DNA of 36,239 nucleotides from a virus. This document shows positions 31,807 through 34,751 of the stretch, piece after piece. The translations under genes were made by a program, and so were the position numbers. The stretch covers positions 1-36,239 of the IMG/VR virus record IMGVR_UViG_3300031774_000064; one strand, given 5' to 3'. Positions within the stretch are counted from its first letter, which is position 1. Each line of letters opens with the position of its first letter. The notes under the pieces are model-generated. The model was not told where the DNA came from and did no database searches. It worked only from the letters and a program-made list of their open reading frames with translations.

Positions 31807-31947
31807 ATGGATTGGAAAGTGTCTGCATTTCATAAAAAAGAATACTGGAAAAGAAAACAAGCTCCGTTTGGTTGCAAGTGTGGTTGCGGAGTGGATTGTG
31901 AATGTACGAAAGAAACTAATTGTGGTTGCGATTGTTGGGAGGAATAA
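31807..31947 (+). CDS. 8-cysteine miniprotein B (paralogue of 1663-1752)
   Basis: A 46-residue protein has a basic, aromatic N-terminal extension (about 1-21, FHKKEYWKRKQ) and a core with eight cysteines at 23, 25, 27, 31, 33, 39, 41 and 43, exactly the spacing of miniprotein A. The core ends TKETNCGCDCWEE, nearly identical to A. DNA identity is visible over the core as well. It overlaps the downstream methyltransferase start as TAATG and supplies that gene's GGGAGGA Shine-Dalgarno. Metal or thiol chemistry is inferred from cysteine density; the basic arm could direct it to nucleic acid or membrane. Confidence 0.8.
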   Translation: MDWKVSAFHKKEYWKRKQAPFGCKCGCGVDCECTKETNCGCDCWEE

Positions 31948-32924
31948 TGACTACTGTTGGAGAGTTTTTCTGTGGCGCAGGAGGCATGGGGTTAGGTGCT
32001 AAACAGGCAGGGTTCGAGCATAAGTTCGCTATTGATTATGAGTTCGATGCTGTTGCTTCTTTCTCATTAAATGTTTCACGTAATGTTTTATGTGCTGACA
32101 TAAAAGAAGTTGACATTAAAGAACTCCCGTATGTGGATGGGTTCATGTACGGATTTCCTTGTAACGATTTTTCTATACTCGGTGACAGTAAAGGACTTGA
32201 AGGTTCTTTCGGTGGTTTATATTCCTATGGTGTTGAGTATTTAAATTTACATTCACCGAAGTTTTTTGTAGCTGAGAATGTTGGTGGCATTTCAAGTGTC
32301 AATAAAGGTGAAGCTTTTAAGAAAATCTTGGCTGACCTGGGTGAAGCAGGCAATGGCTATACATTAACCGTGCATAAATATAAGTTTGAAGAGTACGGCA
32401 TACCACAAAAACGTCACAGATTCGTAATCGTTGGTATGCGATCTGATCTTGGTTTAAAGTTTGAAGTTCCTGAACCATCCGGTCAGATAGTTACAGCTGG
32501 AGAAGCATTAGCTTGCATACCTTCCTGGGCTAACAACCATGAGTTCGCTAAACATCCTGCGAAAGTTGTTGAACGATTGTCTTATATAAAACCTGGTGAG
32601 AATGTTTGGCAAACCCACCTGCCGGAACATCTAATGTTGAAAGAACAATTAGAACAGAAGCAACATAAAGCTATGTCTAATCGTTACAGGAAAACTCATC
32701 CTAATAAACCTGCTTATACCGTGACTGCTAGTGGTGGTGGTGGTACTCATGGCTACCATTGGGAGGATCGGGCTTTAACTAACAGAGAACGTGCAAGGTT
32801 TCAAACTTTTCCTGATTGGTTTACTTTTGTTGGAGGTAAAGAATCAGTTAGAAAGCAGATAGGTATGGCTGTTCCTGTGTTGGGTGCAAGAATTATTCTT
32901 GAAGAGATACGGGGTTTGTTGTGA
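31947..32924 (+). CDS. DNA (cytosine-5) methyltransferase 1
   Basis: It methylates C5 of cytosine in a target site. Motif I is FCGAGGMGLG (8-17), motif IV GFPCNDFS with catalytic Cys72, motif VI ENV (110-112), motif VIII QKRHR (154-158), motif IX RERARFQTFPD and motif X QIGMAVP. The 325-residue length is normal with a modest target-recognition region. ATG 31947 has GGGAGGA just upstream; a longer frame upstream overlaps the Cys-rich gene. No partner restriction enzyme is seen, so protection from host restriction is the likely role. Confidence 0.95.
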   Translation: MTTVGEFFCGAGGMGLGAKQAGFEHKFAIDYEFDAVASFSLNVSRNVLCADIKEVDIKELPYVDGFMYGFPCNDFSILGDSKGLEGSFGGLYSYGVEYLNLHSPKFFVAENVGGISSVNKGEAFKKILADLGEAGNGYTLTVHKYKFEEYGIPQKRHRFVIVGMRSDLGLKFEVPEPSGQIVTAGEALACIPSWANNHEFAKHPAKVVERLSYIKPGENVWQTHLPEHLMLKEQLEQKQHKAMSNRYRKTHPNKPAYTVTASGGGGTHGYHWEDRALTNRERARFQTFPDWFTFVGGKESVRKQIGMAVPVLGARIILEEIRGLL

Positions 32925-33238
32925 TGACTGAAGAAGAGGCAGCTAAGACTTTGTTTTTAATGTCGTCTATATGGACACAGAAAGTAAGCGATCCTACTTT
33001 AATTATTTGGAGAGACAAGCTAACCAGGTATCCGTATCACATGGCTGAAGAGGCTGTTCATAGGTTGGCTGATGTTAATAAGTTCTTTCCTTCTTGGGCA
33101 GAGATGAAAGAGATGATTGATTCTATTAAGCGTGGTTCTGTTGAGCCTGTTAAGGAGCTGGAGTCGAGCAAGGATTGGTTGTCCAAGGAAGAGAACCTTG
33201 AGAGGATTGCAGAGATCAGAAAGAAGCTGCGTAAGTAA
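32924..33238 (+). CDS. G39P-like helicase loader/inhibitor relative
   Basis: A 104-residue protein between the two methyltransferase genes shows helices TEEEAAKTLFLMSSIW, the central YPYHMAEEAVHRLADVNKFFP and SWAEMKEMIDSIKRG, followed by a charged tail. This order is typical of SPP1 G39P-type replisome proteins, which deliver the replicative helicase. No helicase gene is in the window, so it may act on the host DnaB or on a phage helicase elsewhere. It starts by TGATG overlap with methyltransferase 1. Confidence 0.6.
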   Translation: MTEEEAAKTLFLMSSIWTQKVSDPTLIIWRDKLTRYPYHMAEEAVHRLADVNKFFPSWAEMKEMIDSIKRGSVEPVKELESSKDWLSKEENLERIAEIRKKLRK

Positions 33239-34338
33239 TGAAAGTTGGAAGTTTTTGCACAGGCTACGGAGGGTTAGACCTTGCAGTAGAACAATACTAT
33301 AACGCTGAACTCTCATGGGTTTCTGAAATAGATAACAACTGCAACAAACTCCTAGAAAAAAGATTCAACAAACCAAACTTAGGTGACCTGACATCTGTTA
33401 ATTGGGAGGATGTAGAACCCGTAGATATTATTTGTGCAGGTTTCCCATGCCAACCATTCTCAGATGCCGGATCAAAAAAAGGAGACAAAGATGAAAGAGC
33501 AATCTTCCCACTCATTGCCAAGTCCATCGGGGTATTACGACCACGATACGTGTTCCTGGAGAATGTCGCAGGGATCATTACTACAAGAAATGGGGGAGGA
33601 CTTGACGTTGTTGGACTCCTTACCCAAATGGGGTATGACTGTAGATGGGGCATTATACGAGCTTCCGATATCGGAGCATGTCACCAACGGGCGAGGTGGT
33701 TTTGCGTTGCTAGTGACCCCAACAGCGACAGAGAAGGAGGTGGGCAGACCGGAACGGTACGTGAGCAGGGGAATAATGAACGACAGATCAACAAGGTTCG
33801 ACCTGACAGATCAAGTAGCTTACCTGAAAACTCCAACGACAGGGGATCATCAGAAAGGCAGACCGGAACGGTACAAGGAACGAGCGGTGGACAAGATCAA
33901 TTTCAAGGAGAAAGACGGCAGGATAGTGGAGACACGGTTCGACTTGGTGGATCAAGTGACTTACCTGCTTCCGACTCCGACTGTTCAAGACTCCAACAAC
34001 AATGCGGGTCGATCACAATGGGAGAGAGATGGCGACCCGTTAAATGTGGCAGCTATGAAACTAATTGGAATAAAGACATCGGAAGAACTGGAAACCATGA
34101 AACAGATTGGGGTAAATACACCGGAGCAATTAGAAGATGGTCAGAAACAATAGGAAGACCACCACCTACACCTGCTAAAGATTTAAAACTTTCCAGCTCA
34201 TTCGTCGAATGGATGATGGGATTACCTGAAGGATGGGTGTGTGATCTAGGTTTACCCAGAACAGTTGAACTTAAAATGTTAGGCAATGGTGTCGTACCAC
34301 AACAAGCCCTACTAGCGTTAGAGTTATTGAATGAGTAG
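33238..34338 (+). CDS. DNA (cytosine-5) methyltransferase 2, with nested gene
   Basis: Motif I is SFCTGYGGLD, motif IV GFPCQPFSDAG with catalytic Cys71, motif VI ENV (108-110), motif VIII HQRARWF (149-155) and C-terminal MLGNGVVPQQA. Between motifs VIII and IX/X lies a long hydrophilic stretch (about 158-285) rich in Ser, Gly, Asp, Arg and Gln, as in many phage C5 methyltransferases where it forms the target-recognition region. Another gene (33491-34153) is encoded entirely inside this one in a different frame. It overlaps both neighbours; a phage anti-restriction role is likely. Confidence 0.92.
   Translation: MKVGSFCTGYGGLDLAVEQYYNAELSWVSEIDNNCNKLLEKRFNKPNLGDLTSVNWEDVEPVDIICAGFPCQPFSDAGSKKGDKDERAIFPLIAKSIGVLRPRYVFLENVAGIITTRNGGGLDVVGLLTQMGYDCRWGIIRASDIGACHQRARWFCVASDPNSDREGGGQTGTVREQGNNERQINKVRPDRSSSLPENSNDRGSSERQTGTVQGTSGGQDQFQGERRQDSGDTVRLGGSSDLPASDSDCSRLQQQCGSITMGERWRPVKCGSYETNWNKDIGRTGNHETDWGKYTGAIRRWSETIGRPPPTPAKDLKLSSSFVEWMMGLPEGWVCDLGLPRTVELKMLGNGVVPQQALLALELLNE
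33491..34153 (+). CDS. Nested gene inside methyltransferase 2 (alternative frame)
   Basis: A 220-codon frame, shifted by one base relative to the methyltransferase, starts at ATG 33491 with a strong AAAGGAG (33478-33484) six bases upstream. The product begins MKEQSSHSLPSPSGYYDHDT and continues CSWRMSQGSLLQEMG, LPKWGMTVDGALYELP and TPTA/LPTPT blocks. I recognise this CSW...SLL...LPKWGM..GALYELP...TPT pattern as that of a phage protein family usually encoded next to or fused with C5 methyltransferases. A repeated segment (GRPERY...TRFDL.DQV.YL.TPT) occurs twice. Function is unknown; it may aid target recognition. Confidence 0.7.
   Translation: MKEQSSHSLPSPSGYYDHDTCSWRMSQGSLLQEMGEDLTLLDSLPKWGMTVDGALYELPISEHVTNGRGGFALLVTPTATEKEVGRPERYVSRGIMNDRSTRFDLTDQVAYLKTPTTGDHQKGRPERYKERAVDKINFKEKDGRIVETRFDLVDQVTYLLPTPTVQDSNNNAGRSQWERDGDPLNVAAMKLIGIKTSEELETMKQIGVNTPEQLEDGQKQ
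33743..33980 (+). repeat. Diverged internal duplication read in two frames
   Basis: GGCAGACCGGAACGGTAC occurs at 33743-33760 and again at 33857-33874, 114 bases apart. GGTTCGAC followed by a similar ATCAAGT...TTACCTG occurs at 33795 and 33936, 141 bases apart. Both offsets are multiples of three, so the duplication keeps both the methyltransferase and the nested frame. Confidence 0.8.
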
Positions 34339-34556: not shown

Positions 34557-34591
34557 TGTCGCCTGTCGCCTGTCGCCTGTCGCCTGTCGCC
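34557..34591. repeat. Five perfect 7-bp tandem repeats (TGTCGCC)
   Basis: TGTCGCC is repeated five times exactly, just after the terminator. The unit is not a multiple of three and no gene covers it, so it is non-coding; it may be a slippage hotspot or a protein-binding array. Confidence 0.95.
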
Positions 34592-34626
34592 AATGGTTCT
34601 GTTTAATAATTTTTCCTGCTGCGCTG

Positions 34627-34663
34627 AAGCTGCGTGTCAAGCTGCATTAAGCTGCGAAGCTGC
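34627..34663. repeat. Four AAGCTGC copies at 12/10/8-bp steps
   Basis: AAGCTGC occurs at 34627, 34639, 34649 and 34657, with shrinking spacing. Together with the TGTCGCC array it makes the convergent gap (34472-34751) repeat-rich. Iteron or regulator sites are possible. Confidence 0.7.
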
Positions 34664-34751
34664 TGTTCACCTGGCGGGTCAATGTTTTTACGGAGGGGAC
34701 AGACGCAATCTAAGCGCCCATCCCCGTCGTAACAGATTCGTTTATGCCTTG

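Follow-up and report, generated by a model that had tools for sequence, protein, structure and literature searches.

One stretch of viral DNA carries two genes in overlapping frames: a C5-cytosine methyltransferase gene (alpha) and, nested within it in the +1 frame, a second gene (beta). Beta is a real, conserved coding gene, and chance has no power to explain its open frame. Sequence comparisons make it likely that the pair constitutes a two-protein C5-cytosine methyltransferase encoded by a single stretch of DNA, with beta as a multi-module target-recognition subunit acting together with alpha. The locus lies near the right end of the window, the whole 36,239-nucleotide stretch analyzed, whose source is a 36 kb IMG/VR virus record (Table 1). 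A preliminary description had placed a 220-codon +1 ORF inside a C5 methyltransferase here, and its position, ATG, and AAGGAG six bases upstream are as that description gave them. The ATG begins at 33491 and the TAG occupies 34151-34153, in a frame open since a stop at 33422.

Table 1. Positions of alpha, beta, and their parts in the window.
Feature	Position	Strand	Evidence
Alpha, C5-cytosine methyltransferase, 366 aa (motifs I-VIII, linker, motifs IX-X)	33238..34338	+	PF00145 (E 2e-40); phrog_363/116; AlphaFold; M.HhaI match
AAGGAG ribosome-binding site of beta	33479..33484	+	Sequence; 6 nt 5′ of the beta ATG
Beta, nested gene, +1 frame relative to alpha, 220 aa	33491..34153	+	phrog_1008 match; selection tests; kept start codon
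Region B, alpha motifs VI-VIII over the beta N-terminus	33496..33702	+	Purifying selection in both frames
Region C, beta alone constrained; alpha a variable, stop-free linker	33703..34149	+	Omega values; L008 comparison; low pLDDT
Beta constant N-terminal part, residues 1-73 (..CSWRMSQGSLL..LPKWGMTVDGALYELP..)	33491..33709	+	Kept in all relatives
Beta module 1 (LVTPTATEKEVGRPERY...FDLTDQVAY), module family 4	33710..33823	+	
Beta module 2 (LKTPTTGDHQKGRPERY...FDLVDQVTYL), module family 4	33824..33967	+	
Beta module 3 (LPTPTVQDSNNNAG...) and C-terminal tail (..LEDGQKQ)	33968..34150	+	
Alpha C-terminal part, residues 288-366, motif IX-like FVEWMMGLPEGW and motif X LGNGVVPQQA	34099..34335	+	pLDDT ~95; phrog_1008 positions 227-317

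Elsewhere in the window, short repeats (CGCCTGT units followed by AGCTGCG-like units) occupy 34558-34670, 3′ of the methyltransferase and before divergent minus-strand genes. At the left end, positions 484-1501 hold Trp/Cys/Val-rich ORFs and an overlapping antisense ORF with no clear gene, a segment that is possibly non-coding or of skewed composition.

Alpha belongs to the C5-cytosine methyltransferases, presenting motifs I, IV (PCQ), VI (ENV), VIII, IX, and X in order. Its AlphaFold model (mean pLDDT 72.8) is confident at residues 1-165 and 288-366 (pLDDT ~95), except for the catalytic loop at 73-80; between these parts, a 122-residue linker (residues 166-287, pLDDT <50) is modeled as disordered, without appreciable secondary structure. 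Known C5 enzymes carry a target recognition domain (TRD) where alpha has this linker. The model matches M.HhaI across ~166 columns, and the alpha profile covers HhaI 16-178, passes over the HhaI TRD, and gives no more than a marginal alignment at 273-308. No TRD was found between motifs VIII and IX of the alpha chain, where HhaI region 179-272 is unmatched, the model is disordered, and omega is ~0.94. Hydrophobic residues make up 18% of the linker, which in one relative (L014) spans a few tens of residues only. The host frame had been described as a full methyltransferase with all motifs; its catalytic motifs are present, but a TRD of its own is not recognizable by profile or model.

The open +1 run is not a chance product, because randomized alpha genes never reached its 242 codons. 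When synonymous codons were drawn anew according to the codon usage of the phage, with the alpha protein fixed (5,000 trials), the longest +1 run had a mean of 96 codons and a maximum of 233; permuting the codons already present in alpha yielded no run above 218, and the observed run is longer than in all 10,000 synonymous randomizations. The control was a second C5 methyltransferase of the ordinary kind, lying one gene upstream of alpha (31920-32924): its +1 frame stays open for no more than 46 codons, and in its relatives the longest runs are 36-71 codons.

Selection in each frame was measured mostly from freshwater relatives that are related to but not identical with the window's gene; the pairs are not independent, and the statistics were bootstrapped over sequences. 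In 134 pairs drawn from 57 genes, substitution rates at alpha codon positions 1, 2, and 3 are 0.14, 0.07, and 0.41 upstream of beta and 0.15, 0.06, and 0.40 downstream of the beta stop. Across motifs VI-VIII they become 0.14, 0.08, and 0.26, with alpha-synonymous sites suppressed, and in the linker 0.39, 0.18, and 0.16, the signature of the beta frame. Resolved in 8-codon bins, the pattern switches exactly at the beta ATG and the beta stop. Overlap-aware dN/dS among the relatives yields an omega of 0.39 (0.32-0.45) for beta and 0.14 (0.12-0.17) for alpha over motifs VI-VIII, and of 0.18 (0.12-0.28) for beta and 0.94 (0.83-1.10) for alpha over the linker. The expectation of two meaningful proteins over ~660 bases therefore stands for the ~207 nt of motifs VI-VIII only, where both frames are under purifying selection; in the other ~450 nt beta alone is constrained, and alpha drifts neutrally yet stays stop-free as a passive linker.

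Between the window and relative L008, third-position differences fall from 0.645 upstream to 0.318 once the overlap begins (Fisher p 1e-4), and identity in the linker region is 54% for beta and 38% for alpha. Alpha-frame stops in region C number 0 against 224-448 expected, a deficit that is partly a product of sample choice, the genes having been picked for an uninterrupted alpha (as found in 86 of 91 distinct methyltransferase ORFs). T at the beta wobble position before AA, AG, or GA occurs in 0 of 1,437 cases, compared with 932 of 3,836 elsewhere.

The beta ATG sits on a conserved Asp of alpha and needs either GAT there or an AAT-GAC pair one codon earlier; 58 of the 59 representatives have it. 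GAT encodes the conserved Asp at the beta start in 55/59 cases versus 248/486 elsewhere (p 4e-11), and in GAC-preferring contigs in 8/9 versus 20/111. Upstream of the ATG, 52 of 58 representatives carry a Shine-Dalgarno (SD)-like site, as against 7% at control positions, an excess that may be owed in part to conserved Lys-Gly residues of alpha. These codon and site preferences point to selection on the beta start.

Beta comprises a ~73-residue constant N-terminus followed usually by one to five modules, mostly of 23-50 residues, that begin with LLPTP or similar ("LLPTPxxxD"). It matches phrog_1008, "DNA methyltransferase" (E 1.1e-11, residues 3-188, family positions 46-215), as do all 23 betas of alignment A4. 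Alpha's C-terminus matches the same family at later positions (227-317); the family model takes in the motif IX-X end, which the window encodes in alpha's frame. Beta gave no Pfam match, a PDB sequence search with it matched no solved structure, and AlphaFold of a freshwater-clade beta (37-sequence alignment) returned no usable fold (mean pLDDT 45, pTM 0.24). Part of the beta N-terminus is dictated by conserved alpha motifs, LENVAG, for example, reading as SWR.S in the +1 frame. Motifs VI-VIII are ancient features shared by all C5 enzymes, and the beta N-terminus uses their DNA in a shifted frame; this part of beta was therefore most likely born by overprinting of the catalytic domain.

Module families, defined as single-linkage clusters at 40% identity and hence approximate in number, recur at differing positions beside differing neighbors; the family "PTPTARDYKD.." is found anywhere from position 1 to position 6. 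Whole modules set apart genes that are otherwise near-identical, with both frames kept: a 120-nt in-frame deletion separates L066 and L068 (flanks 95-100% identical), a 120-nt in-frame insertion separates L009 and L059, a clean in-frame module indel distinguishes L167 from L192, and L008 differs from L009 by module replacement. In many freshwater betas (e.g., L153:3251-3787), a conserved last module contains cysteines and His-Trp (GKCRNWGADLLHDVKC.C...R.HW) and is possibly metal-binding.

Relatives of alpha and beta gathered from IMG/VR include dozens of divergent phage contigs that keep the beta frame open together with its start codon and ribosome-binding site. In 59 of 61 representative alphas the +1 frame is open straight from the conserved start region, and in the remaining two (L012 and L013) it begins slightly later. 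Nearly all single-chain relatives also have ~130-300 open +1 codons at the corresponding place in the gene, with a homologous product, and their +2 runs are shorter than the +1 runs, L117 excepted. The exception to the open +1 frame is L129, two contigs with identical gene sequence, where beta is cut short after one partial module. The nested frame had been read as encoding a meaningful protein; frame-specific constraint and database matches bear this out, and neither of the adverse outcomes named beforehand, nested-frame stops in homologous methyltransferases or a lack of homologues, occurred.

Other layouts of the same parts occur. Two natural single-chain versions, L129 (496-1590) and L117 (2706-3791), carry "LLPTP" modules between motifs VIII and IX in the reading frame of alpha itself. 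Phages of Streptomyces, Arthrobacter, and Mycobacterium have beta as a separate gene whose frame extends across motifs IX and X, fusing the modules in front of IX-X. Many other contigs, together with Leptospira and Paenibacillus plasmids, place motif IX in the beta frame and motif X in alpha; the two plasmid copies (L199 and L200, respectively), with motif IX in the nested +1 frame and motif X in the large frame, are each annotated as one gene. The same parts thus exist in three distributions, with the modules always in the slot of the single-chain TRD. Nested beta is missing from the annotation of two culturable phages, Arthrobacter phage MidnightRain (gp84, L201:1828-3282) and Streptomyces phage Darolandstone (gp38, L203:1591-3285). 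A profile search of cellular genome contigs with the beta alignment returned only two weak matches. The nested arrangement is apparently widespread and mostly unannotated; its supposed rarity does not hold, as it recurs in many phage contigs and some plasmids, and the two-protein M.EcoHK31I has been known since 1995.

We propose that alpha, in frame 0, would provide catalytic motifs I-VIII and IX-X, with a long disordered linker replacing the TRD, while translation of beta would begin on its own, at the SD and ATG that lie within alpha. Beta would then bind alpha and act as a TRD provided in trans, with a different short DNA target for every module; by swapping modules, the phage could keep its DNA protected as the set of host restriction enzymes changes. 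In this scheme catalysis belongs to alpha, and beta very probably contributes the recognition modules in trans. We also lean toward a broader picture in which C5 specificity in a large phage group is held entirely in the nested gene: modules would be swapped in one frame while alpha reads a featureless linker, and swaps would be tolerated only if both frames stay open. Against a TRD role of beta, the modeled beta protein did not fold confidently and the PDB sequence search matched no solved structure; as a further counterpoint, the predicted TRD of M.EcoHK31I was placed in the large subunit (PMC3404938).

That the nested frame is untranslated, and open and conserved-looking merely through alpha conservation and a linker poor in the hydrophobic codons that make +1 stops, deserves almost no credence. 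Although parts of the beta N-terminus do follow from alpha motifs and hydrophobic residues are scarce in the linker, linker substitutions follow the beta frame with alpha neutral, synonymous change in alpha is suppressed across motifs VI-VIII, selection acts on the beta start codon and its SD, and the window's run exceeds every synonymous randomization. Programmed frameshifting, which would make beta an extension of alpha rather than an independent protein, is very improbable and was rejected. The A7 run 5′ of the beta start in the window (33474-33480) could be read in its favor, as could L129 and L117, where modules do occupy alpha's frame; but the A7 run is missing from relatives, and a −1 slip there leads into the other frame and an early stop. 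Moreover, the independent ATG with its SD is conserved, alpha is kept open through the whole linker, and a chain of motifs I-VIII, modules, and motifs IX-X would require two shifts.

The alternatives that accept beta as a protein differ in its role. Recognition by alpha's linker, leaving beta a structural or accessory part that, for example, stabilizes alpha, would agree with the assignment of the M.EcoHK31I TRD to the large subunit (PMC3404938); this is improbable for a linker that has an omega of ~0.94, is modeled as disordered, and shrinks to a few tens of residues in L014. A function unrelated to methylation (e.g., anti-restriction or regulatory), overprinted on the methyltransferase, is unlikely, though it would fit a beta with no Pfam or structural match and a low-confidence fold. 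Against it, M.EcoHK31I requires both proteins in vitro (PMC3404938), the beta frame itself holds motif IX, or IX and X, in many relatives, single-chain forms place the modules between motifs VIII and IX, and alpha has no recognizable TRD. We retain beta as the likely target-recognition subunit of a two-protein methyltransferase.

The beta N-terminus offers a clear case of a protein segment apparently overprinted on an ancient catalytic domain. Long same-strand overlapping phage genes are usually single cases with weak evidence, whereas here a family of dozens of divergent members makes selection measurable per frame and switching exactly at the ends of the nested gene. The results suggest that many phage methyltransferases are annotated with half the enzyme missing, and expression or methylome work on the large subunit by itself would then be uninformative. 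Should the modules be recognition elements, they would form a naturally combinatorial system of specificity, from which interchangeable parts for DNA recognition could be drawn.

The nearest known counterparts are M.EcoHK31I, M.AquI, and the multispecific enzymes of Bacillus phages. M.EaeI is a two-polypeptide C5 methyltransferase like M.EcoHK31I; the small subunit of M.EcoHK31I was reportedly shown by Lee et al. in 1995 to be encoded in another frame of the large gene. M.EcoHK31I and M.AquI are natural two-polypeptide C5 enzymes (PMC3404938). In vitro, M.EcoHK31I depends on both of its proteins (Lee et al. 1995, as cited by PMC3404938); its small subunit carries motif IX, and its large one has motif X as well as the predicted TRD (PMC3404938). 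The window's pair resembles M.EcoHK31I in joining a large subunit with the catalytic motifs to a small second polypeptide, and in the window this second polypeptide lies in another frame and is under selection; the likeness is one of layout. It differs in that motifs IX and X both lie in alpha: beta, a constant part plus modules only, stops at 34153, before FVEWMMGLPEGW in alpha. The M.EcoHK31I motif distribution is found instead in relatives L077, L095, L101, and L199.

M.AquI likewise consists of two polypeptides, the second holding the distal variable region. Its layout is seen in the actinophage relatives phiBT1, Samy, Heather, and Ovechkin, in which beta is fused to motifs IX-X; in the window, by contrast, the second polypeptide holds neither motif, IX-X being back in alpha and beta wholly nested. 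Bacillus-phage multispecific enzymes carry their recognition modules between motifs VIII and IX. In these C5 methyltransferases (SPR, phi3T, rho11, and SPbeta), several short target recognition modules are arranged in tandem and are in principle exchangeable from phage to phage (PMC8936443, its references 58-59). The beta family similarly has tandem, exchangeable modules in the TRD slot; the Bacillus-phage modules belong to the catalytic chain and frame, whereas those of the window lie in a second protein in an overlapping frame, the two being likened by arrangement. A literature search, with subscription journals mostly outside its coverage, found no published description of a module-bearing nested gene. 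The window's enzyme differs from M.EcoHK31I, M.AquI, and the Bacillus-phage enzymes in combining motifs IX and X in alpha, a nested protein devoid of both, and a module array in the overlapping frame.
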